64,000 bases of DNA from assembly GCF_032854445.1 (NCBI RefSeq), contig NC_088299.1, positions 16,051,608-16,115,607 of the forward strand. Direction: 5' to 3'. The DNA is from Liolophura sinensis. Taxonomy: Eukaryota; Mollusca; Polyplacophora; Chitonida; Chitonidae. The position numbers and the translations under genes are program-made. The notes beneath the pieces were generated by a model that saw only the letters and a program-made list of their open reading frames with translations, had not been told where the DNA came from and did no database searches. Numbering within the stretch: the first letter of the stretch is position 1; each line of letters begins with the position of its first letter. Shown here in pieces: positions 1 to 53,116 of this stretch.

Positions 1-3000
1 CTAACATGGAAGACAACCATAAAGGAAAGTCTGCTGATATGGATGAAACGTGGTCATTCTAACAAGGAAGACAAACATAAAGGAAAGTCTACTGATATGG
101 ATGAAATGTGGTCATTCTAACAAGGAAGACAAACATAAAGGAAAGTCTGCTGATATGGATGAAACATGTGGTCATTCTAACAAGGAAGACAAACATAAAG
201 GAAAGTCTGCTGAAATGGATGAAACATATGGTCATTCTAACAAGGAAGACAAACATAAAGGAAAGTCTACTGATATGGATGAAACATGGTCATTCTAACA
301 AGGAAGACAAACACAAAGGAAAGTCTGCTGAAATGGATGAAACATATGGTCATTCTAACATGGAAGACAACCATAAAGGAAAGTCTGCTGATATGGATGA
401 AACGTGGTCATTCTAACAAGGAAGACAAACATAAAGGAAAGTCTGCTGATATGGATGAAACGTGGTCATTCTAACAAGGAAGACAAACATAAAGGAAAGT
501 CTGCTGAAATGGATGAAACATGTGATCATTCTAACAAGGAAGACAAACACAAAGGAAAGTCTGCTGATATGGATGAAATGTGGTCATTCTAACAAGGAAG
601 ACAAACATAAAGGAAAGTCTACTGATATGGATGAAACGTGGTCATTCTAACAAGGAAGACAAACATAAAGGAAAGTCTGCTGAAATGGATGAAACATATG
701 GTCATTCTAACAAGGAAGACAAACATAAAGGCAAGTCTACTGATATGGATGAAACATATGGTCATTCTAACATGGAAGACAAACATAAAGGAAAGTCTAC
801 TGATATGGATGAAATGTGGTCATTCTAACAAGGAAGACAAACATAAAGGAAAGTCTGCTGATATGGATGAAACGTGGTCATTCTAACAAGGAAGACAAAC
901 ATAAAGGAAAGTCTGCTGAAATGGATGAAACATATGGTCATTCTAACAAGGAAGACAAACATAAAGGCAAGTCTACTGATATGGATGAAACATGGTCATT
1001 CTAACATGGAAGACAACCATAAAGGAAAGTCTGCTGATATGGATGAAACGTGGTCATTCTAACAAGGAAGACAAACATAAAGGAAAGTCTACTGATATGG
1101 ATGAAATGTGGTCATTCTAACAAGGAAGACAAACATAAAGGAAAGTCTGCTGATATGGATGAAACATGTGGTCATTCTAACAAGGAAGACAAACATAAAG
1201 GAAAGTCTGCTGATATGGATGAAACGTGGTCATTCTAACAAGGAAGACAAACATAAAGGAAAGTCTGCTGATATGGATGAAACGTGGTCATTCTAACAAG
1301 GAAGACAAACATAAAGGAAAGTCTGCTGAAATGGATGAAACATGTGATCATTCTAACAAGGAAGACAAACACAAAGGAAAGTCTGCTGATATGGATGAAA
1401 TGTGGTCATTCTAACAAGGAAGACAAACATAAAGGAAAGTCTACTGATATGGATGAAACGTGGTCATTCTAACAAGGAAGACAAACATAAAGGAAAGTCT
1501 GCTGAAATGGATGAAATGTGGTCATTCTAATAAGGAAGACAAACATAAAGGAAAGTCTGCTGATATGGATGAAACATGTGGTCATTCTAACAAGGAAGAC
1601 AAACATAAAGGAAAGTCTGCTGAAATGGATGAAACATATGGTCATTCTAACAAGGAAGACAAACATAAAGGAAAGTCTACTGATATGGATGAAACATGGT
1701 CATTCTAACAAGGAAGACAAACACAAAGGAAAGTCTGCTGAAATGGATGAAACATATGGTCATTCTAACAAGGAAGACAAACATAAAGGAAAAGTCTACT
1801 GATATGGATGAAACGTGGTCATTCTAACAAGGAAGACAAACATAAAGGAAAAGTCTGCTGATATGGATGAAATGTGGTCATTCTAACAAGGAAGACAAAC
1901 ATAAAGGAAAGTCTACTGAAATGGATGAAACGTGGTCATTCTAACAAGGAAGACAAACATAAAGGAAAGTCTGCTGAAATGGATGAAACATATGGTCATT
2001 CTAACAAGGAAGACAAACATAAAGGAAAGTCTACTGATATGAATGAAACATATGGTCATTCTAACATGGAAGACAAACATAAAGGAAAGTCTACTGATAT
2101 GGATGAAATGTGGTCATTCTAACAAGGAAGACAAACATAAAGGAAAGTCTGCTGATATGGATGAAACATGTGGTCATTCTAACAAGAAAGACAAACATAA
2201 AGGAAAGTCTGCTGAAATGGATGAAACATATGGTCATTCTAACAAGGAAGACAAACATAAAGGAAAGTCTACTGATATGGATGAAACATGGTCATTCTAA
2301 CAAGGAAGACAAACATAAAGGAAAGCCTTCTGATATGGATGAAATGTGGTCATTCTAACAAGGAAGACAAACATAAAAAAAAGTCTGCTGAAATGGATGA
2401 AACATATGGTCATTCTAACATGGAAGACAAACATAAAGGAAAGTCTACTGATATGGATGAAACATGGTCATTCTAACATGGAAGACAAACATAAAGGAAA
2501 GTCTACTGATATGGATGAAATGTGGTCATTCTAACAAGGAAGACAAACATAAAGGAAAGTCTTCTGATATGGATGAAACATGTGGTCATTCTAACAAGAA
2601 AGACAAACATAAAGGAAAGTCTGCTGAAATGGATGAAACATATGGTCATTCTAACAAGGAAGACAAACATAAAGGAAAGTCTACTGATATGGATGAAACA
2701 TGGTCATTCTAACAAGGAAGACAAACACAAAGGAAAGTCCACTCCTATGGATGAAACATGTGGTCATCCTAACAAGGAAGACAAACTTAAAGGAAAGTCT
2801 GCTGATATGGATGAAACATGTGGTCATTCTAACAAGGAAGACAAACATTAAGGAACGTCTGCTGATATGGATGAAACATGTGGTCATTCTAACAAGGAAG
2901 ACAAACATAAAGGAAAGTCTACTGATATGGATGAAACATATGGTCATTCTAACAAGGAAGACAAACATAAAGGAAAGTCTACTGATATGGATGAAATGTG

Positions 3001-4425
3001 GTCATTCTAACATGGAAGACAAACATAAAGGAAAGTCTACTGATATGGATGAAATGTGGTCATTCTAACAAGGAAGACAAAAATAAAGGAAAGTCTTCTG
3101 ATATGGATGAAACATGTGGTCATTCTAACAAGAAAGACAAACATAAAGGAAAGTCTGCTGAAATGGATGAAACATATGGTCATTCTAACAAGGAAGACAA
3201 ACATAAAGGAAAGTCTACTGATATGGATGAAACATGGTCATTCTAACAAGGAAGACAAACATAAAGGAAAGTCTACTGATATGGGTGAAACATGGCCATT
3301 CTAACATGGAAGAAAAACATAAAGGAAAGTCTACTGATATGGATGAAATGTGGTCATTCTAACAAGGAAGACAAACATAAAGGAAAGTCTTCTGATATGG
3401 ATGAAACATGTGGTCATTCTAACAAGAAAGACAAACATAAAGGAAAGTCTGCTGAAATGGATGAAACATATGGTCATTCTAACAAGGAAGACAAACATAA
3501 AGGAAAAGTCTACTGATATGGATGAAACATGGTCATTCTAACAAGGAAGACAAACATAAAGGAAAGTCTACTGATATGGATGAAATGTGGTCATTCTAAC
3601 AAGGAAGACAAACATAAAGGAAAGTCTGCTGAAATGGATGAAACATATGGTCATTCTAACAAGGAAGACAAACATAAAGGAAAAGTCTACTGATATGGAT
3701 GAAACATGGTCATTCTAACAAGGAAGACAAACATAAAGGAAAAGTCTGCTGATATGGATGAAACGTGGTCATTCTAACAAGGAAGAAAAACATAAAGGAA
3801 AGTCTACTGATATGGATGAAATGTGGTCATTCTAACAAGGAAGACAAACATAAAGGAAAGTCTGCTGATATGGATGAAACATGTGGTCATTCTAACAAGG
3901 AAGACAAACACAAAGGAAAGTCCACTCCTATGGATGAAACATGTGGTCATCCTAACAAGGAAGACAAACATAAAGGAACGTCTGCTGATATGGATGAAAC
4001 ATGTGGTCATTCTAACAAGGAAGACAAACATAAAGGAAAGTCTTCTGATATGGATGAAACATATGGTCATTCTAACAAGGAAGACAAACATAAAGGAAAG
4101 TCTACTGATATGGATGAAATGTGGTCATTCTAACATGGAAGACAAACATAAAGGAAAGTCTACTGATATGGATGAAATGTGGTCATTCTAACAAGGAAGA
4201 CAAACATTAAGGAAAGTCTGCTGATATGGATGAAACATGTGGTCATTCTAACAAGGAAGACAAACATTAAGGAAAGTCTGCTGATATGGATGAAACATAT
4301 GGTCATTCTAACAAGGAAGACAAACATAAAGGAAAGTCTACTGATATGGATGAAACGTGGTCATTCTAACAAGAAAGACAAACATAAAGGAAAGTCTGCT
4401 GATATGGATGAAACATGGTCAATGT
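1..4425. repeat. 58/60-bp minisatellite, about 75 copies, reaching the left edge
   Basis: Near-identical units built on ATGGATGAAACATGTGGTCA. They come in a 60-base form (AAACATGTGG, AAACATATGG) and a 58-base form (AAACGTGG, AAACATGG, AAATGTGG), so reading frames keep breaking and no long coding frame exists. Read on the minus strand, each unit has a pyrimidine-rich tract ending TTCCTTGTTAG followed by AATGAC, which resembles a 3' splice site. The array lies in the USP5 intron after the UBA2 exon, whose next codon in the family is Asn, so it may copy the acceptor of the next exon, outside the window. Right boundary near 4425. Confidence 0.95.
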
Positions 4426-4498
4426 CAATCTTCCATCCCAAAAAAGTGAGGAGAAGAGAAAAGAAAGCAAATATTAAAATTAGTGGCATGGATGATTT

Positions 4499-4545
4499 GA
4501 AGACAGACAGACACACAGACAGACAGACAGACAGACAGACAGAAA
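4499..4545. repeat. (GACA)n microsatellite
   Basis: A run of GACA tetramers with a few interruptions, shortly after the left-edge minisatellite, in a USP5 intron. Confidence 0.9.
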
Positions 4546-4640
4546 GACTGCAAGAGCAGGCTTGCAAATATTAATAACGAGATTTTAATGTTTAAATGCT
4601 AATGTTATTAAGGAAGGAAGATGTTGAGAAAGTAACTCAC

Positions 4641-7600
4641 AGTTGCTTTCAAGGCCATAGATGCTTGTTCAATGGTAAATCCCATGGAGACAATCATAGC
4701 AACTGCTTCTTCATTGGGTGAAAAGGAATCTTTTGACTTTTTGGGAAGCTGAAGGGGAACTTCAAAATCTGCAAATAAATCCCAGAAGAGAAATCATGAC
4801 CAGTTATATGTACAATTTATCATTAATAATGCTCCTAAGTTGATCCTTCCTTCCCCCTGACATTTTTCATCACTCAAAGTTTATACATTGTCTGTGATGA
4901 AATATCGGCCATATTGGGATGTTGATGGGTAATAACACATTAAAGTGCATACATTATCTCCTGTCCACACCTAGGTAGTCAAGACTTCAGAAGTATGTCA
5001 TATAGGAAAGCAGTATATATACACAAAAAAGAAATGTGAAAATACAGCCTTACTGAGTTCACAAAACCAAGTGATGATTTTACATCATTTCTTTTTTGGC
5101 AGCTATCACTGTCCCATACACAGCAGTCAGCAGCAGTCCCTACCTGGGTCTCCCATATGCTCCATCACCCAGTTCATGGCAGCTTCTACACCTGTATTTT
5201 TTGTATGGTATACTGCTTTTCGACAGCCTTCCCTTGCAAACCCCATTTCTGTTAGCTGAGTGACAACGGATTCGTCAATCTGAATCTCTGAAACAGGTAA
5301 TCAACATCAGGTATGCAATCCCATGAAGAAAGTCATGTGACCCAGCACAGGTAGGCCTACATACAAATGTATATGACAAGAATTTACCCACAATAACCTA
5401 TTTTTCAGCTAAAAATATACTTTCTTTATTCTTTTCAATCCATTATTTTTATGCACAATGATTTACAAAGTATTCATGAGCGTCTGACTGACACAATGTT
5501 CCGTGTTTTGGTTTATGAGTTGAGGAACGTGAGAACAAACACACAGGGGCACGAAAAAACCAAACCACATCATGAACACACCAAACCTGGTGATCAACAC
5601 ACAAAACCTGGTCATGAACATACCAAACCTGGTGATGAACATACCAAACTTGGTCAGTGAAGCAATGCCAGTTGTATTGTGGTGTGCTGGCCGCCGTGGT
5701 ATAAGTGAAATATTCTTGAGTACAGCGTAAAACACCAATCAAATAAATAATAAATATTGTGGTGAGTTGTTACAGTCAGCAGGCTGCATTACTGTTTCCA
5801 GAGTAAAACAAGCATTCTGGAAATAATAACTACATGTAAAAGTACATCTTTATGGCTGGCTGTATCATAAACCTATGCCCGCAGCACCGGGGTTCTGGGG
5901 ACTGCTCTTAATCCCCTGGCTATAGCAGGAAGGCCGAGACTACAACATACCTCAGCTGGTCTGTTCTGGGGACCAATCTTCCTCGCCTGGGTGTAGGAGG
6001 AAGGCTGAGACCACAACATACCTCAGCTACTCTGTTCTAAGGACCGCTCTTCCTCCCCTGGCTGTAGGAGGAAGGCTGAGACTACAACATATCTCAGATG
6101 CTCTGTTCTGGGACCGCTCTTCTTCCTCTGGCTGTAGGAGGAAGGCTGAGACCACAACATACACAGCTACTCTGTTCTGGGGACAGCCCTTCCTCCCCTG
6201 GCTGTAGGAGGAAGGCTGAGACTACAACATACTTCAGCTCCTCTGTTCTGGGCACCGCTCTTCCTCCCCTGGCTGTAGGAGGAAGGCTGAGACTACAACA
6301 TACCTCAGCTGCTCTGTTCTGGGAACCGCTCTTCCTCCCCTGGGTGTAGGATGAAGGCTGAGATAACAACATACTTCAGCTACTCTGTTCTGGGGACAGC
6401 ACCTTCCTCCCCTGGCTATAGCAGGAAGGCTTAGCTTACAGCATACCTCAGCTGCTCTGTTCTGGGAACTGCTCTTCCTGGCTGTAGGAGGAAGACTGAG
6501 ACCACAACATACGTGTCTGTTCTGGGGACAGCTCTTCCTCCCCTGGCTGTAGGAGGAAGGCTGAGACTACAACATACATGTACCTCAGCTGGTCTGTTCT
6601 CGGGACAGCTCTTCCTCCCCTGGCCGTAGGAGGAAGGCTGAGATTACAACATACCTCAGCTGGTCTGTTCTGGGGACAGCTCTTCCTCCCCTGGCTGTAG
6701 GAGGAAGGCTGAGATTACAACATACCTCATCTGCTCTGTTCTGGGGACCGCTCTTCCTCCCCTGGGTGTGGGATGAAGGCTGTAATTACCACACGCCTGG
6801 TTCATCTGCCAATTCTGGGGACAGCAGTTCTTCCCCTGGATGTAGGAGGAAGGCTTGGATTACAACATACCTGGTTCATCTGTCTGTTCTGTTGGCAACT
6901 CTTCCTCCCCTGGCTGCATACCCTGACCCCTGAGAGGAGACAGGTCCAAAGTGTCGGGGACATCAACAGAGACATCTGAAATCAGAAACCCATATACAGG
7001 TATATGCAACAACACATCAGAGTGCAACACAGCCAACATGCGTGATATCAACTGTAACACTTCATTACCGTTAAAGGATTATTGATAAGATGCTGTTTTT
7101 CTCTTTGATAGACATTTCTTTGGAGCACATGTGGATGAAACTGGGACGCCCAGCAGATAACACACCCCACTGTAGAATACACAGAGGTTATTGAACGGTG
7201 AGTTTTGAATACCATAAATACTTTTCCAGGGAGAACTGGAAATGATAAACCATGAGGAGACATTTCCATCTTTCACAAGAAAAATATTTGTGGCATTCAA
7301 CTTTCACTAAGCAATATTCCATTTACTATTTATATTTCAACAATGTCACTTATCATTTTGTGTATTTGAATAAGGTTAAGCAGAGACTCAAATCAGTAAA
7401 ATCTCACCTAACTTCTTGGGCACCCAATCCTCTCCTATGGTGAACTTTTTTAACTGAATCACTAAGAAGTCTGGAAATGTTGACAATCTGGTTGTTCTGA
7501 AAAAATAAAATAAATATGGAATTTCAAAGCAGACATTCTGAAGTTGGTAAAAAAAAAGCATATTACCCGATCCTATGCAAACCTTCCAATCGAGTTATAT

Positions 7601-10600
7601 ATTCTTGTTATATTAGAATAGCAAAATCAGAATGTCTAATCTGACTAATGGAAATTCAAATGTTCATCGATGCACAGAGACCTGGAATACTACATTGCTA
7701 CATTGTACATACAAAAAACTTACTGCTGAGCTTTGCACTTGGACTGGAGAGCTGAGCTGTAGAAATCATCTATAATCACTGTGGCAGCGAAAGATTCTAT
7801 ACATGACTGTAAAGGAATTTGGGGACGAACTATTTCTGATGGATCTCTACAATGCAGATAAAAATAACCAAATTGCCTTCAGTAATTAATCACAACCGTC
7901 AAAATCATTAACTTTGTCACATCATTAAATATGATAAAATTTAACAGTAAGATGAAAAAATGGGAACAGAGAAACCTTGTAATTTGTAGATTGAGAAGAA
8001 AGTGGCACAAGTCTATAAAATCAAAATCTGGAACACATGACCTTGCAATAGGCTATCCATCAAGACAGAAATATCTGATATTTTGAAGTTGATGAATTTA
8101 ACTCAAATCCTTTCAAAGTCACATGACTGAACAGACAAATGAGATCATGGAAGTGCCATGGGTGATTTAAAATGCACAAGTGGACAAACAATATCCAAGG
8201 AAATTCAATGACAACATTCCCTTTCTTCTACAAACTTTTTTATATCAGAACATGAACAAACCCTCAAGATTTTTCTCAAGCAATAAAGCTTTTCTGAACT
8301 TAAATTTACTCCACAGATTTCTCTTTTCAAATAGTTTGTAATTCATATATTTACTGTATCCTTATAGAAAATGCATTTACACATGAAGTATTTAAAGCTT
8401 ACCAGCAAGCCATACATACAGATGTCTCTTGTGATGTGTTGGGTTGGGTTGTGTTGTTACTACAGGTGAAACAGAGAAGATTTTCATTCTAGGAATATGT
8501 ACTTACATTTTCTTTGACTCTACTGCCAGCTGTTGCTTTTTTGCTTCATAGGCCAAGACTTCATCTACAGAAAACAGTAAATACAGGGTCAGACAATGTG
8601 AAATTTGAATTCTATGTATACATGAACATGTACAATGTCTAAGAGATGAATAACCAAGTTCACAAATTACAAACCATCCTAAATTCTTCTCATCATTTCA
8701 TTGTTTTGTAAATAAAATATACCTACTGCAAATAAATTATGAAATGAATTTATCTCTGAGGTAAAAACAATTATTTTTTAATCCAGATTCCCTTTATTAT
8801 AATTTTCCAAATATTTCCAAACACACAAAATCAACATTAAAAGCAGTCTGTTAGTGACACGGCTGTCTACTCTGGTCTTTCTCACCTTTGTTTACAGCAG
8901 CCTCTAGGGGGATGTTCAATGAGAGCAGGTACTCTGAACGTTTACTATAGCGCACCTTGCTCGACCCCCCACACTGGACCCTCTCCTCTACCTCATACTT
9001 GAAGCTGTCAGTTGGATTTTCTGTCCCTCGACTGTTTCTCTAAAATCAGTTTCCATGACAAAGGCTGGTGAGCTACCACTTCTTCTACATGTACAACCTT
9101 GGTATACAATCACACCTGTTAGCTGAGCACTGGAGTTCTCAGGCACCATTTAACTGTAATATACTCTGTCTAATGCTTTAACTGTCACTTGATGTCACTC
9201 ATACATGTGCTATACCTCACCCATCTTTTTACCTCTAAAACTGAAAGTTTTCAGAAATTTTTGTTTCAACCATTACATGCATTCTGAAAATCTATTTTAC
9301 AAATGTACCAATATTTGTACAATAAACTTTTTTGATGGAACCACGTGAATTACATATATATTCTCCCAAAACAGAAACTCATGCATGTATGCCAGTGGTG
9401 GACAGTGGACACAGATGGTGGACCCAGATGGTGGACCCAGATGGTAGTCCCAGGTTCTGAGATGAACATCCAACTGTGTTCTTGCTGAATGAGTTACTCC
9501 TGCTTATTTTTATCATTACACACATTCTTGTTTCCTCATTTTGTTACTTAGCTAAAACTGCCAGTGTATTTACTTAATTAGCCTACCCTGAACCAAAGCA
9601 GGTGTTTCACTTATTTCCCTCTAAAATAACTGTACCTCTATGACATTAATGATGTGGAGGAGGAATTCTTGAGCATCTTGTTGTCGTTTGGTGGAGAACT
9701 CTGGATGACCGCGACCAATCAATGACTTGAACATCTGAGGACGGATTCCTCTGGGGGCCTACAATATAAGCCACATAAACTGGATACATATTTGACATAT
9801 AAATTTTCAACAAAGTCATATGACACACTGACAGGAGTTGTGACCGTGCCTACCAGGGGTCCACTGTGAGTTAAATATGGCTCTGTGCAGTAAAGCGGGT
9901 AGGGGGTTGATTGACAGGGACTGTAATTCTACTAAATTTGTCACAGTATATTTGGGACTTTGTATTTAGTTATTGTGGTAGTCAACCTGAGCATACTCAT
10001 ACAATGGAACTATAAACACAAATTTAAACTCCTCACATTTCTGAACCAGAACAAACAGATGATACCTGAACTTTGTCTTCTGTCCCCTCTGGTATTGGCT
10101 GAGAGTAGTCACCTGACAGCAAACCGTGACCAAACTTTGCCCTGTCTCAATAGAAATAGGCAAAGTGTGCACGAACTCAAAGACATTATGGGTCACACTA
10201 ACTAAGTCAAAAACAAGATGTGTTACAGATGTGATCTGTCAAGGAGGAGTGTCCATGTCTCAGGACAACTGCCAAGCTACTCACACCCTGGTCAGGATGT
10301 GTTGCCTTTAGTTAGCAAGAATCACTGTATTTTGTAACTAGCCAAATAACCATAGACTTGAGCAATTTCCTACATTTACCTGTCACAGAACAGTGACCTG
10401 AATATCAAGTTCATGTGTACTTGGTACTTTAACTTTAGTCATAATCAAAGATGATAAAATAAAATGTGACACACTGCCTGGTTAGGAGACACCCAACAGC
10501 TTGTGGTGGGCAGTGGGCATACACTGTACAACAACTAAACCTCCCACATTGTCATCAGGTGGTTTGCAACAATAGTACAGTATTTGATACTTTTGATTAG

Positions 10601-13600
10601 TGACTATGGATTTTTTGCCCAAAACCTTCAGTATGTCATCTACTACAGATTCTGGATAATACAAATACATACAAAATATTCAAACCTTGACTGCACACAA
10701 TTTTAAAATAAACTTTGCCAAGGAACTAGCTCTATACAACATTTAACGCCAAAAAATCAACATTTACCCTTAAAAGTACAGTGTACTTTGGGCAAGCTGG
10801 ATAAAGACAAAAATTTTAAGCACTTTACATTTGAGTGTTGAAATCAGATGTAGGGTCACTGGGCGCGTCATCAAATATCCTTTCAGCAGCCTCTGCATAT
10901 CTGGGAAAGAGGTATAAAACAGCTGAACTGTCTGAGGTCATACATATGTCACTGCACACTGCGTTCAATTCTGAGTATGTACAATGAAAGCAAAGTCTCA
11001 CATCGAACATGCTGCCATACAACAAGACAGCCTCTGCAGACTTGTCACTAGGTTAGAGCAACACATGGTAGATCTCAACAACCTTAATCTCAATTAAGAT
11101 TTTAAACAAGCACAGTATTAAGTTTAATCCTGACTAAAGTACCAAGTGTTAAGACTTAAGCTTCAGTAATGTACATGTATAATGTACTTTTTAACAACTG
11201 TTCTCTGGTCAAAGGATAATGTCTTAAGTTTTTTCTCATTTACAGAATATTTGTAGGACCAAAAACACTCTGCTCTTACTTGTATTGCGTAAAATGGCCA
11301 TTATTACACAATTTCTTTACAAAGACATATGCTCTTGAAAAACACATGTTTTCAGAAAGAATGTCTCTTCGCACATCCAACCACAGAGAACCAACAGTCT
11401 CAAGGAATCAAAGGACTAAAAATTAACTGGTCAATTTACCGCTTCTGAAAGTCTGGGACTGTGAAGAGGATTTGCATGACGGAGTTCATATAGCAGCTGT
11501 TGCCAAGGTTACGGATGCCAGTGAGTCCAGGTCCATAGACTGGGATGAGTTTATTGCCCGCCTCCTGGATCACGTCCCACTCTCCAACCTTCTGGTTCAG
11601 ATCAATCTCCATCTCGATCATTGTTTTCTCTGTCTGAAACACAGCACATTAAACACTTAGACCTACACAATTCGCTGTATGAACCGCAGCACATTAAACA
11701 CTTAGACCTACACAATTCGCTGTCTGAAACACAGCACATTAAACACTTAGACCTACACAATTCGCTGTCTGAAACACAGCACATTAAACACTTAGACCTA
11801 CACAATTCGCTGTCTGAAACACAGCACATTAAACACTTAGGCCTACACAATTCGCTGTCTGAAATGTAGCACATCAAACACTGAGGCCTACACAATTCTC
11901 TTTCTGAAACGCAGAACATCAAACACTGAGCCCTACACACTTCTCTGTCTGAAACGCAGCACATCAAACACTGAGGCCTACACAATTCGCTGTCTGAAAT
12001 GTAGCACATCAAACACTGAGGCCTACACACTTCTCTTTCTGAAACGCAGAACATAAAACACTGAGCCCTACACACTTCTCTGTCTGAAACGCAGCACATC
12101 AAACACTGAGGCCTACACACTTCTCTTTCTGAAACGCAGAACATCAAACACTGAGGCCTACACACTTTTCTGTCTGAAACATAGCATGTCAGACACTGAG
12201 GCCTACACACTTCTCTGTCTGCAATGCAGCATGTCAAACACTGAGGCCTACACACTTCTCTTTCTGAAACGCAGAACATCAAACACTGAGCCCTACACAC
12301 TTCTCTGTCTGAAGTGCAGCACGTCAAACACTGAGGCCTACACACTTTTCTGTCTGAAACATAGCACGTCAGACACTGAGGCCTACACACTTCTCTGTCT
12401 GAAACACAGCACATCAAACACTGAGGCCTATGCACTTATGTTTGAATCCCACCTCATTTTTACTATCCACTGAGTCCCTAAAACGCCCGAAATGTGATAT
12501 GTCAAAAGACGCACTGGTAAACCATCTTTCAACAGTAATCCAGCCGTTTAAACTTTCAAATCAAACAACTCAAATCAACGTCTGCCATCTTTGGAAGTTT
12601 TTTTTTCAACTTCGGTCAAGACGATGGGTCACTAAATGTTTGGCCAGATAAGGGTACAGTCTCACCTTTTGTATGGCTGCTATGTTTATTCCCCACTGAG
12701 CTAATAGTTTGGCATGATAAGCGTACAGTCTCACCTTTTGTATGGCTGCTATGTTTATTCCCCACTGAGCTAAATGTTTGGCCAGATAAGGGTACAGTCT
12801 CACCTTTTGAATGGCCACTATGTTTATTCCCAATAAGGGTACAAGCTAATCTTTTGCATGGCAGCTATGTTTATTCCCCACTGGGCAAATAGTTTGGCCA
12901 GATAAGGGTACAGTCTCATCTTTTGTATGGCAGCTATGTTTATTCCCCACTGAGCTAATAGTTTGGCCAGATAAGAGTACAGGTTCACCTTCTGAATGGC
13001 CACTATGTTTATTCCCAATAAGGATACAAGGTAATCTTTTGTATGGCTGCTATGTTTATTCCCCACTGGGCAAATAGTTTGGCCAGATAAGGGTACAGTC
13101 TCACCTTTTGAATGGCCACTATGTTTATTCCCAATAAGGGTACAAGCTAATCTTTTGCGTGGCAGCTATGTTTATTCCCCACTGGGCAAATAGTTTGGCC
13201 AGATAAGGGTACAGTCTCACCTTTTGTATGGCAGCTATGTTTATTCCCCACTGAGCTAATAGTTTGGCCAGATAAGGGTACAGTCTCACCTTTTGAATGG
13301 CCACTATGTTTATTCCCAATAAGGGTACAAGCTAATCTTTTGCATGGCAGCTATGTTTATTCTCCACTGGGCAAATAGTTTGGCCAGATAAGGGTACAGT
13401 CTCACCTTTTGAATGGCCACTATGTTTATTCCCAATAAGGTTACAAGCTAATCTTTTGCGTGGCAGCTATGTTTATTCCCCAATGGGCAAATAGTTTGGC
13501 CAGATAACGGTACAGTCTCATCTTTTGTATGGCTGCTATGTTTATTCCCCACTGGGCAAATAGTTTGGCCAGATAAGGGTACAGTCTCACCTTTTGTATG

Positions 13601-16600
13601 GCAGCTATGTTTATTCCCCACTGAGCTAATAGTTTGGCCAGATAAGAGTACAGTCTCACCTTTTGAATGGCCACTATGTTTATTCCCAATAAGGGTACAA
13701 GCTAATCTTTTGCATGGCAGCTATGTTTATTCTCCACTGGGCAAATAGTTTGGCCAGATAAGGGTACAGTCTCACCTTTTGAATGGCCACTATGTTTATT
13801 CCCAATAAGGTTACAAGCTAATCTTTTGCGTGGCAGCTATGTTTATTCCCCACTGGGCAAATAGTTTGGCCAGATAACGGTACAGTCTCATCTTTTGTAT
13901 GGCTGCTATGTTTATTCCCCACTGGGCAAATAGTTTGGCCAGATAAGGGTACAGTCTCACCTTTTGTATGGCAGCTATGTTTATTCCCAATAAGGGTACA
14001 AGCTAATCTTTTGCATGGCAGCTATGTTTATTCCCCACTGGGCAAATAGTTTGGCCAGATAAGAGTACAGTCTCACCTTTTGAATGGCCACTATGTTTAT
14101 TCCCAATAAGGGTACAAGCTAATCTTTTGCATGGCAGCTATGTTTATTCCCCACTGGGCAAATAGTTTGGCCAGATAAGGGTACAGTCTCACCTTTTGTA
14201 TGACAGCTATGTTTATTCCCAATAAGGGTACAAGCTAATCTTTTGCGTGACAGCTATGTTTATTCCCCACTGGGCAAATAGTTTGGCCAGATAAGGGTAC
14301 AGTCTCACCTTTTGTATGACAGCTATGTTTATTCCCAATAAGGGTACAGTCTCATCTTTTGTATGGCTGCTATGTTTATTCCCCACTGAGCTAATAGTTT
14401 GGCCAGATAAGGGTACAGTCTCACCTTTTGTATGGCTGCTATGTTTATTCCCCACTGCGCTAATAGTTTGGCCAGATAAGGGTACAGTCTCATCTTTTGT
14501 ATGGCAGCTATGTTTATTCCCCTCTGAGGTAAGTGTTTGGCAGTGCTACAGATGAGGGGCATACACGTGTAAACACACTTTAAAATTGGATGATAAGCTT
14601 CTAAAGCAGAGCATACTGTATACGCCAGAAGATTTGTGTGTATGCCCAAGATCCCGAAAGTTCCTGTGCCACCACCCACAGCTGTGGAGAAGGCCTACCG
14701 TGATATTTCTCTCTGCGACATTCTCAAGTGTTTGCTATGAAAAAGAATTAGCAAAGGGTTTGAAATGGTCTTTTTGGTTGCTATACTTCAAGTTCTGCTT
14801 CTGTATTGCACAAAATCATCCTAATATCGCTTCCAAATGTCTGATTTCAATTCCCCCCAAATCGTCATTCTGCAGTTTTAAAGTATCATCGAGGGTCCAG
14901 TTCCTGACATATGCCCGTAGCTATGATTTCATGAAGAGACAAGCTAATGCAACGAAATAAAAATATCATGAGAACAGATAGTAACATATGCACAGGAATA
15001 CTTCAGATTTATACTATACACTGCTAATAATTAAAGCACAAAATAATAAATGCTTGTCTTCAAATGTAGGCCCTACATTTGGATTCAGCTTACATGTATA
15101 TCAACAACCGTTTTATCATCTTTTGACACAAAGAAGGCAGTTGTTGACAAGTTTGTATGGGCCAAGAAGTGTTTAGACAGGTAAAAGAAAATTTACCTCT
15201 GGCATCTGGCAGGTTACCATAGAAAAAAATAATACTACAACCCCTTCTATCAAAGCACAAGGAATGAAAAGTACAGAATAAAACTGTCAGTGAATGAGTT
15301 ACTGAAATAAACCTCACACAGATTGATACGAAATAAATGTGTTAACTTCAATGAAATTCATTCCTCTTGTGGAAGAGTTGAAATAATTACTTTATTCCAG
15401 AACGTTTTTGGGCAATTTATATGTAGGTCTACATCTACTTGTATACAAGATAGTCCTGTGTAACTACAAAGGAAGAATCTCTGTACGTATCGATTTATGT
15501 ATACATGTATGCACATGTCTTTTCTTCACTCCTTTCACTCAATCAACTTCATACTTTCCAGGTGTATTACTGGTGACCCAAAATAGTTAAGTGTGGAGTA
15601 CTTGAAAAAAAACAACTCTTTTCTGCGGTATCGCATACTTGGAAAGTCAGAAGTAATTAACATACTCCTTATCTTTCAAAGTCGGGAATACCGTATCCCC
15701 TCTGACAAAAAATTATCTGTAGCACTGGTTTGGCCAGATAAGGGAACAGGCTCACCTTTTGCATGGCTGCGATGTTTATTCCCCAGTGAGCTAAATGTTT
15801 GGCTAAAAAAGGGTCCTCCACCATGTCATCTTCATCGTAAGAGAAAACATCTGTAGTCAAAAAAGCAAGGAGAACTAGTGCAATTACAAATACCTTTACA
15901 TTCACATTTCATATACTTTTATTGATAATGATTCAGCAATGTGAAATTTTCTTCAACAGATATCTAAATGTATGTACAACATACTGACCAAATCAGACCA
16001 GGCACGTAGACAAGAACTATAGAATAATAATCTTGAAAAATGTACCTAGACATAAAGAATTCTTATATTGGGCCCTGACGGGTTGAATATACTTGAGATT
16101 TGGTATACACTGACACGCTTTCCCTCATTTTGTCAGTGTCACCCTCATGTGTCATTTGACACATGTAGAAGCCTTACCTGCCCCGTTGGGTGTTATAGTG
16201 CCCAGCTTGACAGCCAGTGGGTACTTGGTCTTGGCGTAAGCCTCCAAGGCATGGTTATTACCACCACTCCCATCAAAGAACTTCCTGCCGCAGAGGATGC
16301 TGCCATCCGTGAGGTTCAGCCAGAGGTTAGAGGTCAAATCACACTGCTCACACTTCCAGCCTGTAGGTGGGATCTTCTTCCCATTGTCTAACTGTTGTAG
16401 AGACTCAGCATACCTGCAGCACAGAACCAAACATGTGTATTATTATATTTATTTGATTGACTTATTTATTTAATTGTATGCAGTACTCAAGAATATTTCA
16501 CAGAAATGAAGGTCAGCATTATGGTGGGAGGAAACCGGGCAGAGCCTGGGGGACACCCACGATCATTATTGCTGACAGTTGCCCCAAGTTGCTGACAGAC

Positions 16601-19600
16601 ATTTCAAAATAAAACTGGAGAGGAAGCCTGCATGATCTAGACTTGAACTCACAGTGATCGTATTGGTGAGAGGCTCCTGTGTCATTGTGCTGCACCAGCA
16701 CACTAAGCACTAGGCATAATATGTTCAGAAATAAATCAACCAGATGCTGTGGTCTTTTGACCAGGCCTATGCCTATACATCAACTTGGCTTCTGACAGAA
16801 ATCACAATAATCAAGTTTATTTATAACCTTCGGCAAAGAGATTATGTTCTTGCCGGTGTTTTTTCTATCTGTTCAGAAACTTTGGGCAGATTTGGCTGAC
16901 AGTTTGTACACAGCTTGAGTCAAGCAACAACCTATGGTGGTCTAGATCTAGATACACATACAGGATATGCTCACCATAGTTCACACAGATCACTGTTCAC
17001 CACTGTACACAGCTTGAGTCAAGCAACAACCTATTGTGGTCTAGATCTAGATACACACACAGGATATGCTCACCATAGTTCACAACGATCACTGTTCACC
17101 ATTGCACACGGCTTGAGTCAAGCAACAACCTATTGTGGTCTAGATCTAGATACACATACAGGATATGCTCACCATAGTTCACACAGATCACTGTTCACCA
17201 TTGTACACAGCTTGAGTCAAGCAACAACCTATGGTGGTCTAGATCTAGATACACACACAGGATATGCTCACCATAGTTCACACAGATCACTGTTCACCAT
17301 TGCACACGGCTTCAGTCAAGCAACAACCTATTGTGGTCTAGATCTAGATACACATACAGGATATGCTCACCATAGTTCACACAGATCATTGTTCACCATA
17401 GCCATATAGGATAGATATGCAGAATACTGTCCCTTGGTAGGGTGGGGCGATTTGTGCCTTTAGCTGTGGAGGAGATTTGCACTCTCAGAGGGCATTCCAG
17501 CTTATTTATTTATTTTAAGAGCATACCTGTATGTAGGGCTGTAGTGTCAAACTGTCCCACAGATCAGGTACATATCTGCATAAGTATTGTAGTGGCACAA
17601 ACAGTGTTAGACACGTGATGTTAAACAAGTGTAAATTTAACCCACAAGCACCATTAAAATTATTGTTATCATGATCACACAAACATGACAGACCTACACC
17701 TTATGTGCTTTGTGTAATTTATATTTAAAGCACCATGAAAGAATATTTGCCTCATATGCCATGCTGAATGTCAGGCCTATGGTGGAGCAAATCATTGGTT
17801 GCCTGAAATTCTGTTGTCAGACAACACAAACCTTTGTGATCAGTCAAAATATGATTACCAGGCATTGCAAACCCTTGTGTTCAGTCAAAATATGATTACC
17901 GGGCATTGCAAACCCTTGTGTTAGGTCAAAGTATGAATACCAGGCATTGCAAACCCTTGTGTTCAGTCAAAATATGATTACCAGGCATTGCATACCCTTG
18001 TGTTCAGTCAAAATATGATTGCCAGACAATGCAAACTGCATACACTAAACAACTGCATAGTTTTGTAGGAACTTTAAAAGTTGATAAGCATGATAAGTTG
18101 ATAAAATATTGTGTGAAGTTATATGTGATTTACCCACAATCAAATAAAACTGCACCTTTTTTCACCTACTTAGTACAGATGCATAAATAGTTGAAGAAAA
18201 TTTCCATGAAATACTAGGTCATGAACTGCACATACACATATATACTTATATTAAAAGTAAATCAGACAAATTTTGCTCCAGCCTACTTTGAGATGATGCG
18301 CTTCTCCCCATCCCAGGTACCCGCCATTGCAGCTGCCTCCTCAAGCTTCCAAGCATCTTCTGCGCCAAGAATTCCCGCTACTGACAGTGCAACCTAGACA
18401 AGGAAACAACACCAATAGGCTCAGTCCACCATCAAATTCTACAGTTACAGGACTTATTCAATAACAACATGTTGCGCATTTTTAGTCTGTTATTATCATC
18501 ATACGCTGAGAACAGGGGTCTACTTTTCAGTGAAAATCACATTGTGAAGATTTTCAGATACATACACAGCATATGTACAATCATATTGATAACTTATTTG
18601 TACTTACTTGTATAATACAAAATACACTGAGAATTTTTACACATTCATTGTTCTATTTTTCTAGCAATCTGTTTTATATCAAAGTACTGAACATTTAATT
18701 TAGCCGATCAAAGTGATGGTAAGCAAACCGTGCCCTAATAACAGCACTTACTCTGCAGTTTAAAAACATTCCTAATCCAGAAAAAAAAGGCTGGAATCAA
18801 ACTTGAATCACAAGCATATCTTGACAAGCCTCAAAACTTCAGGTCATGCACCCCTGAGCCAGTGTAACCAAATCCATTTTTCTACTTGCACAACCTAATT
18901 TCAGTGATGGATCAACTTCACTGACTGACTGGCTGTTTAAAACTGCACTCAGTACATGTATTTCCCTTTAAATGAGAGCTTTCGGTTTCATGGCTGGAGT
19001 GAATCACCACCAGTCACCGTCAAGTCATCTGAAACTGTCCCCTAGTCTTGTACATGCAGAGTGAGTGGGTTCAAATCTATGCAAAGTCTGCAGAATGAAA
19101 ATGATGAACTTTATGTAAGAGTACAAATGTACTTATACACAGCTCATTTTCCATCAAGATTCAGAAAAAGATTCATCAAGATTAGCAAAATGTGCTAAGC
19201 ATGACTGATTCGTATTAAACACCACACTATTCAAGAATTTCCACTAATAAGACTGGTCAGTTTTATAAGTGGAAGAAACTGGAGTGCCCTAAGAAAACCT
19301 TCACCTTCTGGTAAGTTACAGACATACTTTCTGAGGTGTGACATACATGCACAGACTTTCACACTATATTGGTGGTGCAAAAATGATCTTCAACAATTGT
19401 TGTCCTGCAAAAATGGGCGGACAGGCATTGCCAATCGCTTATTGTCATCATGACACCTACAAACATTAATGGCTGGCCAATCTATAGAAGAGAATGACTT
19501 ACAATGTCTGGTAGCTCATCACATGGGAGAGGGATTTCTTTCCAGTCAGGAAGAACCACAATTGATGTTGTTTCCTCAAACTTGAATTTCTTCTCTTCCA

Positions 19601-30358: not shown

Positions 30359-30359
30359 G

Positions 30360-47400: not shown

Positions 47401-50400
47401 AATAAATTTCATGCAATACTAATGCGATATCTGCAGGTACGTGCTTATATGTATGTGAAAATATCCATTTTTTATTATCAGTGGAGGAGCACCATGAGTG
47501 ACATGGTATTAATATTGACATATATTTAAACTATGACTTAAACTAGATCTCAGCTGGTCTTAAATTACAACATAGCCATCTCCAGCGATGGCAAGATCTT
47601 GGTGGCTGGAGAGACCTCGGACACCGAGCTATTATTGCTAGGACACTTATCCCTTATGCCTTTCATAAATCCTGGCTAGGGTGTCTGCACAAACTTGTGT
47701 GTTTTGCAGGATGCTGATTGTACTAGGCCAGGTATAAAACTGACAAACTTGTGTGTTTTGCAGGATGCTGATTGTACTAGGCCAGGTATAAAGCTGACAA
47801 ACTTGTGTGTTTTGCAGGATGCTGATTGTACGAGACCAGGTATAAAACTGACAAACTTGTGTGTTTTACAGGATGCTGATTGTACTAGGCCAGGTATAGA
47901 ACTGACAAACTTGTGTGTTTTGCAGGATGCTGATTGTACTAGGCCAGGTATAGAACTGACACAGAACCTGGCCCTGGTATTTGATGTACCAAGAATCTCT
48001 TCAGGATCTGCAAGTATGACACATTCTTTGCTTGGTTACTTTTGTTGTCAGTTACATTTTATAAATACCTGCCATTCATGTTTGCCAATACGGTATTAAG
48101 TTTCCTCCACACTTAACTCGTAAGTTTCCTCCAGATGCTATGAGATTTCCTCCAGACACTATGAGGTTTCCACCAGATGGTATGAAGTTTCGTACAGACA
48201 CCATGATGTTCCCACCAGACTCTATGATGTTTCCTCCACACACCATCATATTCCCTCCACACACTATGAGGTTTCCATTGGATGCTGTGAAGTTTCCTAC
48301 TGACAATGTGCAGTTTCCTCCAGACAGTGGGTATTTCCACCAGACACCATTACATTTCCTCCAGACACTATGAGTTTCCACCAGATGGTATGAAGTTTCC
48401 TACAGACACCATGATGTTCCCACCAGACACCATGGTGTGTCCTCCACACACTATGAGGCTTCCTACAGACTGTGCAATTTCCTCCACACACTATGAGGTT
48501 TCCATCATATGCTGTGAAGTTTCCTACTGACACTGTGCAGTTTCCTACAGACACCATGATGTTCCCACCAGACACCATGATGTGTCCTCCACACACTATG
48601 AGGCTTCCTACAGACTCTGTGCAATTTCCTCCAGACACTGGGGATTTCTGCCATGTCCAGCTTTTGTCCACCCATATACATGTACCTGACCTCCATCAAA
48701 GGACTGATGTTTTTGACTACATGGATGTGTAAAACACCTGTCAATTACAGCAGTCAATCAATCAATCAATCAATCATGTATCTATTGTTTCTGTCCCCAG
48801 GCTGGAGTCTGAAGAAGCTGTTTAGCAGTGGACTCACCACTCAGTGTCCCCTCTCTGACATGAGCAAGGTCTATGTTGATGTCACTGACATGGAGGTAAG
48901 ATCACTGTGTAGAGATATACAATATTACTGCTATTGATGAGGCTTCAGGGACCTGATGGGGTATTGCGGTTGTCTGTCCAATTTCCGTCTCCACCATCAT
49001 ATAACTGATATTGTTATGCTGTCTTGTCAGTGCATTAGTAGAATCTTGATTCGCATCTGTGTCTGTGGGCGAGGGGGGCGTAATTTCATAAGCATGATAT
49101 CTCATGAAATAATTATGAAATTGTGACTTTTGGTGACTGCTAGAGCTCTGGTACAGCTCCTTGCTACTACTTTTCAGCTGTCTGGTACAATACATTACAT
49201 CTACACTTGGCTTTGTTTCCATTTATACCACAGAGTAAGGAATCCCCATTCCAGCTGCTGCCCGTGTCTGACTCGACTGATGTAAGATCTGGCCACACTG
49301 GGGACGTCCCCTATGCTGTGTACGATGTAGGTCTTCAGACGCGAGACGGACGCCAGTTCAACCTGGAGCTTATGTACAGCAGTCAGTTTGGCCACAGCAC
49401 TGTCAGACCCCCTCCACTCTACGCTCATCGCTACATTACAGGTAAGACTGCTCACAACTCCCAGTTATAGAGGTCCTGTCCTGTGTTTCCTTTTTCTTCT
49501 CTTACCTTTGAAGGAGAAAATTTGATGGTCGTTTCCACCAAAGATCACCACAGTTATGAAAATCGTTACAACTTGTAATGGCCTTTTTTTTTGAAACCGG
49601 TTGCGTTGTTGTAGTAGGTGGAACCATCTGCCCAGCAAGCTGTTCATGGTTCAATTCCAAATCAAGTCAAACCTCGGTAGCCTTGGTAGTACCTCATTTG
49701 TCACAAAGCATAGGAGTAATATACTATATACTTATTGTCCAGGCATCATTATAGTGTGTCTGGGTGGGACATTCCTCGTGTTGTCTTTGGCATGGCATTC
49801 CAAGGCAGCATTATAAATATGTTGGTACTGCGCCTGGCCTGTTACACAGACGTATGGTAATAACGAAATAATGCTGCAAGCAACTGTAAACCTCAAATTC
49901 AAGTAAGAGAAAGCCAAAATATGAAGTAAGGTTCATCACCCAGACAACTGAAATCTATGCGTAAAAATACTTTCATTTGTTTTTTCAGATTTTATTTTAA
50001 GAGTGTTGAAAGGCTCAAAATGTTTGAATATTTGAATACGGTGGTGGGTTTTATGAGCTGTACTGACAGTATTTAGGAACTCTGACATCATATCACCTTT
50101 TTTACCTGATGTTAATAAGAAGGAAGGAATTTTTGGGAATATTATTTCAGTAATCTTTTACTCATGGGTAAAGAGAGTTATTCCAATGTTCAGTGTTGTG
50201 ATTAGACTTGGAAAGACTTCCTGTGATGTCAGAGTTCCTAAACTTTGATAGTATGGTCCACAAAGCCCACCTTAGAATTCAAATGTTTGAATGCCTTTAA
50301 CTCTTTTCACAAAAATCTAAAAATTAAATGAAAGTATATTTGTGTGTAGTTTTAAGTGGTCTATTTAGTGATGTGTACTTTGATTTTTAAGGCTTTTCCT

Positions 50401-53116
50401 TTAAGGCTTTCTCCGCAAGTGCTGGAAGCACATAGGTAAAACAGTTCAGTACAGGTTTATGGGAATGTGTCCTTATTTTGTGTTTAATCACACTGAAATT
50501 GAACCACATTTAACATTCCCCCATGTTGTTATCTGTGAGCAGGACATGGTTTAGAGAAGGGAGGAGTCACATGTCACCTGTACAACAGCTTACCTGAGGA
50601 TTTGATGATTGTTTACTTGGAGACACTCCCCTGGTACATGAGGATGTACTACAACACATTGAGGATAGAGACTAATGGTACCATGACAGTCAGACCCAGT
50701 AAGTGATGTCAGTCTCATATGTCTGTGAACACAGGAAGTGAAAGTCGTATGTGAGAAGATGTGTCAGCAACCTGTGGATAGTCATGGGTTTCCCCTGGGC
50801 TCTGACCAGTTTCCTCCCATCATATTGCTGGGTGCTGTCATATATTGAAAGTGAAAGTGAAATATTCTTGAACACGATGTAAACCACCAATCAAATAAAT
50901 AAATAAATCAATACTATACCGTAGTATTGCTGTATTAAAGGTCCTTATCATGGGCTCTTGCTGGCTCAAATGGTTAAGGCGCTGGTTCACAGAGACTGTC
51001 AGACCATTGACCAATGAGGTTACCTGCTGGAATTTAACTCTCTTTGAAATTTGTCAGATTTCAGCCAAAGAGAGGTGGTTTCCTCTAGTTTTCTTCCGCT
51101 ACAAACCTAACTGCAGTGATACCAGTGATAAATTCTTGCGCGAACAGTAAACAAACCAATAAACTTGCAATTGTTATGTATTGGAATGTTTTAAAATTTG
51201 AGTTCGACAACATTTAGTTATGTATGCATACTTTCCAACATATCCAATTTTACAGTCATTGTTTAAATGAAAAATTTTTCAAAATGCCAATTGTAAAAGC
51301 TTATAGATAAGTGAACATTCTGTCTACCAATGTATCTTCTTCTTTTCATTGTAATGAATTAATCAATATGGTATTGAGATCTTATTTATCCGTCCCAGTA
51401 AAGCAGACATATCAAGCTTATTTCATGTGTTTACAGAGCATGTTCACTACGTCCCAGGGAAGGACAGAGAGAGACTCTACACTCTGGAACTTGTCCTCCA
51501 CCTACAGGCCTACTCCATCACATCTGTCAGATTTCAGTTTGACCGTGCCTTTCTCAAATGGACAGAGTACCCACCAGATGCCAACCATGGGTTCTATGTT
51601 AACTCTGCTGTGATCAGTGTTAAACTCCCAACCAAAAACCTGGATAAAAGGTAAGGCATGTGGTGGTAAAGAATTAATCCATTTTCGAAGCGTTTATAAA
51701 AGGTTGACTACTGTGATATTATGTGAGGTCTGTGTTACAGTGATGACCCTGTGGTGTAGACTACTGTAATATTGTGTGAAGTCTCTGTTACAGTGATGAC
51801 CCTGTGGTGTAGACTACTGTAATATTGTGTGAGGTCTGTGTTACAGTGATGACCCTGTGGTGTAGACTACTGTAATATTGTGTGAGGTCTGTGTTACAGT
51901 GATGACCCAGTGGTGTAGACTACTGTAATATTGTGTGAGGTCTGTGTTACAGTGATGACCCTATGGTGTAGACTACTGTAATATTGTGTGAGGTCTGTGT
52001 TACAGTGATGACCCTGTGGTGTAGACTACTGTAATATTGTGTGAGGTCTGTGTTACAGTGATGACCCTGTGGTGTAGACTACTGTAATATTGTGTGAGGT
52101 CTGTGTTACAGTGATGACCCAGTGGTGTAGACTACTGTAATATTGTGTGAGGTCTGTGTTACAGTGATGACCCTATGGTGTAGACTACTGTAATATTGTG
52201 TGAGGTCTGTGTTACAGTGATGACCCTGTGGTGTAGACTACTGTAATATTGTGTAAGGTCTCTATTGCAGTGATGACCCTGTGGTGTAGACTACTGTGAT
52301 ATTGTGTAAGGTCTCTGTTACAGTGATGACCCTGTTGTATAGACTGCTGTGATATTGTGTGATATCTCTGTTACAGTGATGACCCTGTGGTATAGACAGC
52401 TGTGATATTGTGTGATATCTCTGTTACAGTGATGACCCTGTGGTATAGACAGCTGTGATGTTGTGTGATATCTCTGTTACAGCGATGACCCTGTGGTTTG
52501 GACTACTGTGATATTGTGTGAGGTCTCTGTTACAGTGATGACCCTGTGGTTTTGACTGCTGTGATGTTGTGTGATATCTCTATTGCACTGATGACACTGT
52601 GGTTTAGACTGCTGTAATATTTTGTGATATCTCTATTACAGTGATGACACTGATTTAAACTACTGTAGTATTGTGTGATATCTCTGTTACAGTGAACACA
52701 CTGGTTTGGACTGCTGTGATATGGTATATTATCTCTGTTACAGTGATGACCCTAACGCTGGGTTCCTCAGGCTTCACACAGAGAGCCTCCTGCTGCAGTT
52801 GCCTACCCCTGACTTCAGCATGCCTTACAACGTCATCTGTTTAGCGTGTACTGTCGTGGCCATAGCATTTGGCTCTCTCCACAACTTGACAACTCGCCGA
52901 TTCCAGCTCGTCGACCCGAGCAAGAAGAAAGGACTCAAGGAGAAAATAAAGTCTTTTTTGCAGCGTGTTTTCAAACAAAAGCCCAAGGAAGGAAGTGTGG
53001 AGGTCAGTGATACTACTAAAGAAAGCTCAGAAGACAAATCTGGTGGAGAAAAGATGAAAAAAAAGTCTAAAGACTCTCTGGAACAAGAGGAACAATTGGA
53101 TAAAAAAGTGCTATGA
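41489..53116 (+). CDS. PIGT: GPI transamidase component PIG-T
   Basis: Subunit of the ER GPI-transamidase complex that swaps a C-terminal signal for a GPI anchor. Ten coding exons: 41489-41711, 42758-42935, 43490-43727, 44688-44774, 47926-48013, 48801-48895, 49234-49441, 50543-50698, 51437-51650, 52744-53116. All are GT-AG with matching phases, giving 619 residues (human 578). A hydrophobic leader near residues 19-35 fits a signal peptide. Signature blocks are [43 protein letters not shown] (C197, C210; the region holding the human cysteine linked to PIGK), [20 protein letters not shown] and [15 protein letters not shown]. One C-terminal membrane segment (about 525-545) follows. The cytosolic tail of about 75 residues is Lys/Glu-rich and much longer than the human tail. 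The first ATG is at 41489. Exons 5 and 10 are preceded by tandem copies of their own 3' splice sites. Confidence 0.95.
41905..42055 (+). mobile_element. Second SINE-like family, partial copy in PIGT intron 1
   Basis: Shares CAGGAAAGTTCGTCAGTAAC, CTGGTTTCCTCCGCT and CAATCAGATAAATAAA with the 26.1- and 53.4-kb copies. Confidence 0.6.
42520..42685 (-). mobile_element. tRNA-derived SINE, truncated, in PIGT intron 1
   Basis: TTATTTATTTGATTGGTGTT, then TACGCCGTACTCAAGAATAC, TATACGACGACGGCCA and ACCATCTGCAGG. The tRNA head is missing. Confidence 0.85.
43770..43862. repeat. 21-bp tandem repeat, about four copies, PIGT intron 3
   Basis: TACATGTACTGTATTGATCT repeated. It starts about 40 bases after the exon 3 donor and does not copy it. 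Confidence 0.85.
44030..44195. repeat. 20-bp tandem repeat, about eight copies, PIGT intron 3
   Basis: TTGTGATTTGCTGAAGGATC repeated with small changes and one unit of different length. Confidence 0.88.
45750..46600. repeat. About 30-bp minisatellite in PIGT intron 4, split by a SINE
   Basis: Units contain TAATGTTCCATGGGAACACA and TGGGCAGTCTAATG. About 20 copies in two parts, 45750-46180 and 46449-46600, separated by a SINE insertion. Confidence 0.9.
46181..46448 (-). mobile_element. Full-length tRNA-derived SINE with target-site duplication
   Basis: On the minus strand it starts with the tRNA-like head TAGCTCAGTTGGTTAGCGCG (A box) and has GAGTTCAAGTCC (B box, 46359-46370), followed by a body with a CCGGGTTTCCACCCACC-like segment and an AAATAAATAAATA tail. 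It is flanked by GACATTGGCAGTG at 46168-46180 and 46449-46461. This is the best copy of the family in the window and interrupts a minisatellite. Confidence 0.93.
47690..47925 (+). repeat. 54-bp repeat copying the 3' splice site and start of PIGT exon 5
   Basis: Four upstream copies plus the real one (exon starts 47926). Each has TTGTGTGTTTTGCAG then GATGCTGATTGTACTAGGCC, i.e. the acceptor and about the first 36 bases of exon 5. The frame is open across all copies because 54 is a multiple of three and no stop occurs, so use of an upstream acceptor would insert multiples of 18 residues in frame. Confidence 0.95.
48105..48660. repeat. 21-bp minisatellite, about 26 copies, PIGT intron 5
   Basis: Units such as TTTCCTCCAGACACTATGAG and TTTCCACCAGATGGTATGAA. 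Period 21, so frames stay open on both strands, giving heptapeptide-like patterns (FPPDTMR). Nothing suggests that it is translated. Confidence 0.92.
48752..48776. repeat. (CAAT)n microsatellite next to PIGT exon 6
   Basis: Five to six CAAT repeats ending about 25 bases before the exon 6 acceptor. Confidence 0.85.
50740..50910 (+). mobile_element. tRNA-derived SINE, 3' part, PIGT intron 8
   Basis: Sense copy: CAGCAACCTGTGGATAGTCA, CCAGTTTCCTCCCATCATA, GTGAAATATTCTTGAACACG and an ACCACCAATCAAATAAATAA tail. The head is missing. Confidence 0.85.
51690..52743 (+). repeat. 53-bp repeat copying the 3' splice site of PIGT exon 10
   Basis: About 19 copies, each with CTGTGTTACAG then TGATGACCCTGTGGTGTAG, leading to the real acceptor (exon starts 52744 with TGATGACCCTAACGC). 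The copied exon part is about ten bases. In the PIGT frame most copies reach a TAG a few codons in, so use of a decoy acceptor would truncate the protein before its membrane anchor. Copies nearest the exon are the most diverged. Confidence 0.95.

Follow-up and report, generated by a model that had tools for sequence, protein, structure and literature searches.

The name mirages was given in amphioxus to tandemly repeated intron-exon boundaries, and the available portion of the paper places them in Adh3 and in the globin genes BflGb6 and BflGb9 (PMC3087553). The same portion cites somatic instability for the Adh3 mirages, carries an intron-gain proposal for the globin mirages and cites retinol dehydrogenase and presenilin loci as similar, and a second report extended the list to troponin C and PGBD5, according to its excerpted text (PMC3902484). 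Two other systems bear a partial likeness, as their papers describe them in the sections available. In a potato RdRp gene a duplicated segment also crosses a splice junction, although that case is one tandem duplication, in which a new intron was detected, rather than an array (PMC4974935). In C. elegans the CeRep25B intronic minisatellites are tied to splicing decisions, but they form one dispersed 24-base family and are not copies of each gene's own exon edge (PMC4039745). We recognised no report of junction arrays in molluscs in open-access full text, which was judged mostly by title or the opening of the abstract, so that reports in other wording or other venues could be missed. Nothing mirage-like appears in the accessible parts of papers on amphioxus huntingtin (PMC2206037), abalone calmodulin (PMC6171432), earthworm metallothionein (PMC12783039) or comparative chiton genomes (PMC12005716).

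Six arrays in the genome of a chiton, a mollusc, are mirage minisatellites by the features tested, these being a tandem array, a unit that spans the boundary, an adjoining exon and involvement of both exon boundaries. As in amphioxus, the boundary-spanning unit carries a 5' or a 3' splice site and lies beside the genuine exon, and the unit lengths are 28-71 bp in the chiton, 10-72 bp in amphioxus Adh3 and 150-160 bp in the amphioxus globins, as given in the portions available (PMC3087553, PMC3902484). The initial annotation had suggested a link to the amphioxus Adh mirages, and the available text of both papers agrees with it. Unlike the amphioxus cases, the host is not a cephalochordate, the arrays reach about 28 copies, and four of them lie in one gene (USP5). 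Normal mRNA and haplotype length differences are reported for amphioxus mirages in the excerpted text, whereas the chiton arrays are known from the DNA of one assembly.

The window covers positions 16,051,608-16,115,607 of contig NC_088299.1, a 64,000-bp stretch of the genome of Liolophura sinensis, an assembly first published as Liolophura japonica (PMC11068029) and later given the corrected species name (PMC12441733). The assembly comprises 609 Mb in 632 contigs, and the part of the genome paper available gives a mean length of 8,347 bp and a depth of 14x for the HiFi reads behind it (PMC11068029). Splice-consistent models of the genes were derived from the sequence, the exons having first been spotted by eye with the human proteins as a guide. 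The USP5 model, complete with 20 exons and 802 aa, lies on the minus strand at -3435..23133 (window coordinates), with two of its exons in the left flank outside the window proper, and its alignment with the human protein spans residues 9-800 (1059 bits). The PIGT model is also complete, with 10 exons and 609 aa on the plus strand (41519-53116). In an early draft its last 156 residues matched human PIG-T in a database search (E 6e-41), and we take the rest to be PIGT as well. All 28 introns of the two models are GT-AG.

Elsewhere in the window, reading frames on the plus strand at 25611-27821 stand head to head with the USP5 start (23133, minus strand). They presumably belong to a CDCA3-like gene, CDCA3 and USP5 being adjacent in human too; the first exon of this gene had no Pfam match. 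Minus-strand frames at 34910-38111 are presumably PEX14-like, and the two frames scanned gave no significant Pfam match. An Rfam search of the window gave no match. A dispersed SINE-like repeat occurs at about 20550-20790, 30070-30328, 42465-42683, 46183-46440, 57734-57940 and 60861-61138.

For the window and its flanks (94 kb) TRF rows with a period of at least 7 and a score of at least 100 were merged into 36 arrays, and each array unit was aligned to 100-nt windows round all 56 exon edges of USP5 and PIGT, with 40 shuffles per unit as the control. The CDCA3-like and PEX14-like genes were outside these 56 edges, and in the flanks beyond USP5, where genes are unannotated, arrays were searched. 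Six of the 36 units crossed an exon edge (Table 1). The initial annotation had proposed that each of six arrays reproduces a real exon's edge together with that exon's own splice site, and the alignment bore this out, with scores of 54-156 against shuffle maxima of 23-29. In all six the best match was to an exon edge in the gene that holds the array, and the copies were found in gene orientation. Chance matching of units to exon edges is thus ruled out by the shuffles. The remaining 30 arrays had edge scores of 17-29, which is noise level. Two of these came out one point above the best of their shuffles, in alignments that cross no edge, and in three others a noise-level best alignment (24, 20 and 18) happens to cross one. 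A test made independently of TRF gave the same result: an edge-spanning 24-mer recurred within 1.5 kb at exactly the same six of the 56 edges.

Table 1 Positions of the arrayed exons, the junction arrays and the inserted elements. Coordinates are those of the window unless the C1 block is named; scores are those of the unit against the exon edge, followed by the maximum over shuffles
Feature	Position	Strand	Basis
USP5 exon 3	20464..20515	-	Gene model, human USP5 alignment
USP5 exon 7	15756-15850 (with intron flank 15728..15850)	-	Gene model
USP5 exon 8	11440..11633	-	Gene model, human USP5 alignment
USP5 exon 16	6871..6975	-	Gene model, human USP5 alignment
PIGT exon 5	47926..48013	+	Gene model
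PIGT exon 10 (last)	52744..53116	+	Gene model, database match of C-terminal part
A1, about 14 x 71 bp: 3' part of USP5 exon 16, donor and intron start	5892..6916	-	Score 99, shuffles 23; genuine donor 6871
A2, 18 x 45 bp: intron end, acceptor and first 8 nt of USP5 exon 8	11626..12437	-	Score 81, shuffles 25; genuine acceptor edge 11633
A3, 47/69 bp: 3' part of USP5 exon 7 and donor	12632..14540 (TRF end 14541)	-	Score 63, shuffles 26; genuine donor 15756
A4, about 24 x 28 bp: 3' part of USP5 exon 3 and donor	19805..20485 (TRF 19826-20485)	-	Score 102, shuffles 26; genuine donor edge 20464
A5, 5 x 54 bp: intron end, acceptor and first 33 nt of PIGT exon 5	47689..47961	+	Score 156, shuffles 29; genuine acceptor 47926
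A6, 20 x 53 bp: intron end, acceptor and first 10 nt of PIGT exon 10	51706..52753	+	Score 54, shuffles 29; genuine acceptor 52744
Element in A3, 1,187 bp, 13-bp terminal inverted repeats	14541..15727	.	GTTTGG on both sides
Second copy of that element, aligned in two pieces at 81% identity	32480..33738	.	Sequence match
Acceptor array, 83-bp unit, 1.9 copies	C1 block 66559-66715		Annotation-free detector
Diverged array, 28-bp period, acceptor of SLC43-like gene	C1 block 188036-188506		Accepted by eye; detector score 0.0

Four of the six arrays lie in USP5 on the minus strand and two in PIGT on the plus strand, and donors and acceptors are represented by three arrays each, in agreement with the initial annotation, the array coordinates of which were good to about 50 bp. 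The units are 28-71 bp long and are present in 5 to about 28 copies (TRF), and in each of them at least 8 nt of exon and at least 22 nt of intron were aligned. Every array is on the intron side with the intact exon at one end, and the individual copies differ by point changes. The A5 unit lacks a stop codon and is in frame with PIGT exon 5; its copies form an open frame that includes the acceptor along with a weak donor. A6 accounts for 1,038 of the 1,093 bp (95%) of PIGT intron 9.

Two other arrays are of note. That at 27794-28406 starts in the last codons of the CDCA3-like frame, covers its stop codon and enters the 3' region. It is seeded on a coding end, and was rejected as a splice-junction case because it runs over a stop codon rather than a splice junction. 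Most of USP5 intron 18 is taken up by a 5.5-kb array (-1054..4421), in which a 58-bp unit without an exon-edge match is repeated about 93 times.

Five of the six arrays overlap the genuine exon edge, and the sixth (A3) does so once an inserted element is discounted. The 1.2-kb gap between A3 and exon 7 is occupied by this element, which has GTTTGG on either side; no clear target duplication could be read round its second copy. When the flanks were joined and one GTTTGG was dropped, the sequence leading from the array into exon 7 aligned gap-free to the interior of A3 over 114 bases with a score of 163, the left part alone scoring 70 and the right part alone 103. The segment at 15728-15814, which takes in the edge of exon 7, is the genuine copy of the A3 unit. 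Because the joined flanks align gap-free to the array interior, it is most likely that A3 formerly reached exon 7 and was later parted from it by the element. Seeding of A3 away from its exon is rejected, the intervening sequence being a dispersed element. As to the claim that each array adjoins or points at its exon, the insertion accounts for the exception at exon 7.

The initial annotation had also described the excess of arrays at boundaries as large. If unit-length duplications start at random in the introns and across the edges of USP5 and PIGT, 1.75 of the 19 in-gene arrays would be expected to cross an edge and six were seen (P 0.0048). This P value and the others given here are nominal, and the window is where the pattern was first noticed. 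With the introns taken at full length the expectation was 1.06, and among in-gene arrays having TRF scores of at least 500 six of ten crossed an edge (P 0.0003). When whole arrays were placed randomly inside introns an average of 0.38 adjoined an edge, and five or more did so in none of 4000 trials. Arrays make up 48% of USP5 intron sequence and 27% of that of PIGT. Measured as recurrence of 24-mers, cover was 44% per base in random intron positions, 12/56 at 200 bp into introns, 6/56 at the edges and 2.7% of 565 positions in exon interiors, a gradient of exon, edge and intron that is expected if exons are constrained and junctions are intermediate. By this measure it is introns, not junctions, that arrays favour.

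An annotation-free detector was constructed with splice and codon models trained on the same two genes, and a period of at least 14 was required in the detector and in the samples from outside the window. It ranked the five adjoining arrays 1-5 of 36, with the array over the CDCA3-like stop codon sixth, a ranking that is not independent proof because the training used USP5 and PIGT. At a threshold of 1, six of the 36 arrays of the window region passed (2.6 expected from random placements), as did one of the 34 arrays of a 200-kb block elsewhere (1.25 expected), which is no enrichment.

That block (C1:20.0-20.2 Mb) was picked by its round coordinates before any inspection, and two of its arrays are junction arrays as compared with 0.5-1.25 expected for an assumed 60-160 edges, a difference that in so small a sample is not significant. 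Ten sequences of the block were scanned with Pfam. The exon-like frame at the short acceptor array had no significant Pfam match, and a CARD match together with weak coiled-coil and SH3 matches lies upstream on the same strand. At the SLC43-like gene the two exons joined matched no Pfam family and, when compared with the PDB, matched SLC43 transporters (E 2.7e-11), the best stretch being in the neighbouring exon. The SLC43-like exon at block position 188039 (L024) has seven extra copies of its 20-nt edge when up to six mismatches are allowed; the paralogous exon 29 kb away (L021, block 159218) has none at the same threshold. The two exons differ by 8 mismatches in their first 180 bp, and a weak similarity of the two intron ends persists. 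These two copies, with near-identical exons and a recognisable junction array in one of them, form a natural comparison pair. The SINE-like repeat also occurs several times in the block, as judged by its reading frames. Array density is about twofold higher in and round the window (36 in 94 kb) than in the block (34 in 200 kb).

An exon-anchored sample consisted of nine kinesin loci and one myosin locus (54.7 kb, 49 matched exons, 11 arrays). The loci were chosen for density of matched exons before their arrays were viewed, and used 41 of 132 kinesin rows and 8 of 81 myosin rows. One of the 11 arrays is a junction array, in which six 31-bp copies lie at the donor of a myosin exon that scores above the Pfam cut-off. 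With 80-98 edges estimated, 0.8-0.95 such arrays were expected, and here too the sample is small and the result not significant. The 10 arrays of the nine kinesin loci, which have from none to six arrays each, all failed to pass the detector, and the nearest lies 61 bp from a matched exon end, such ends not being exact exon edges. The three cases found outside the window comprise one donor and two acceptors. The supposed large excess is thus partly supported: it was seen in the window, and outside the window junction arrays were found in about the number expected.

The splice-site dinucleotide is kept in many copies. Leaving the genuine sites uncounted, it is present in 9 of 10 scored copies of A1, 16 of 17 of A2, 16 of 31 of A3, 16 of 22 of A4, 4 of 4 of A5 and 18 of 19 of A6. 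Copies that also exceed the score passed by 95% of the genes' own sites number 7, 10, 16, 9, 4 and 18 for A1 to A6, and those that equal or outscore the genuine site number 0, 4, 15, 5, 2 and 9. Divergence of the dinucleotide columns is near or below the middle of the unit in A1, A2, A5 and A6 (0 to 58% of columns are less diverged) and above the middle in A3 (96% for G and 62% for T) and A4 (86% and 50%). We read these columns as suggesting no consistent selection in either direction. The USP5 model is spliced at the exon-proximal sites of its four arrayed junctions and has no inserted unit relative to human USP5, an alignment which suggests that the protein needs the exon-proximal sites.

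We consider it probable that these are mirage-type minisatellites that arose by ordinary tandem duplication and are tolerated at junctions since the exon-proximal site still works. Duplication of some 28-71 bp would begin anywhere in the non-coding DNA of a gene and sometimes across an exon edge. Copies inside exons would be removed by selection, those in introns would be free, and those crossing an edge nearly so, because the site beside the intact exon would give the same mRNA while the further copies stay intronic. The array would then grow and shrink by slippage or unequal exchange and be homogenised like other minisatellites. The junction arrays found outside the window (1/11 and 2/34), being about the number expected from random starts, support such a neutral start, as do the gradient of cover from exon to intron, the lack of consistent extra conservation of the splice dinucleotides and the difference in edge copies between the two SLC43-like exons. 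The 3.4-fold excess over random starts within the window counts against it, and under a neutral model that excess would have to reflect chance or the window having been singled out. That excess, which is stronger for high-scoring arrays, is an argument for the alternative that splice junctions are preferred starts of duplication, through either the splice-site sequence or the transcription or splicing that takes place there. Consistent with preferred starts, donors as well as acceptors, and genes on either strand, are affected and the only array of the myosin locus sits on a donor. On the other side, the 3 junction arrays among 45 outside (about 1.3-2.2 expected) give no clear excess, the kinesin arrays keep their distance from matched exon ends, and by eye the donor and acceptor units have no obvious common sequence beyond the splice consensus. 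We regard preferred seeding as doubtful.

Selection of the copies as splicing decoys or as a buffer that regulates or protects the genuine site, an option raised in the initial annotation, would fit the many intact dinucleotides, the strength of about half of the A6 copies (9/19) and the stop-free unit of A5, inclusion of which would extend the protein. However, the dinucleotides show no consistent advantage in conservation over the other columns of the unit, the G column of A3 (GT in 16/31) is among the most diverged, and concerted turnover alone keeps copies alike. We consider such selection very unlikely. Intron gain under way, with junction arrays as the first step to new exons or introns as was proposed for the amphioxus globins, would be in keeping with the nearly complete occupation of a PIGT intron by A6, with the acceptor and weak donor in the open frame of the A5 units, and with the new intron that the potato gene, in the portion of its report available, got from a tandem duplication across an intron-exon boundary (PMC4974935); as the explanation of these arrays we consider it very unlikely. 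An artefact, in which the assembly invented or collapsed copies or the alignments are due to chance, is hardly credible. Although long arrays may have been assembled at the wrong length, given the mean length and depth of the HiFi reads in the available part of the genome paper (PMC11068029), the mean read is longer than any of the six arrays (0.3-1.9 kb), the match scores of these arrays far exceed those of the shuffles, the copies carry point differences, and A3 is interrupted by an element that has a second copy elsewhere.

A bolder picture would be that of ongoing, genome-wide minisatellite production in chitons, preferentially seeded on junctions and independent of amphioxus, with many genes relying, among as many as twenty nearly identical splice sites, on the one nearest the exon, and with junctions acting both as hot spots of duplication and as a permanent source of new exons and introns. 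We put this forward tentatively and think it on the whole unlikely. Apart from that picture, the arrays place rows of look-alike splice sites beside the real one in genes, and each array is a natural test of splice-site choice. In PIGT intron 9 the acceptor that the protein seems to require is preceded by 18 intact copies, every one of which passes the score threshold set by the genes' own sites and nine of which match or exceed the genuine acceptor in strength. The arrays are also concrete places to seek intron or exon gain and length alleles in housekeeping genes. Mirages are now found beyond amphioxus, in a mollusc, which suggests that the process is open to any minisatellite-rich animal genome.
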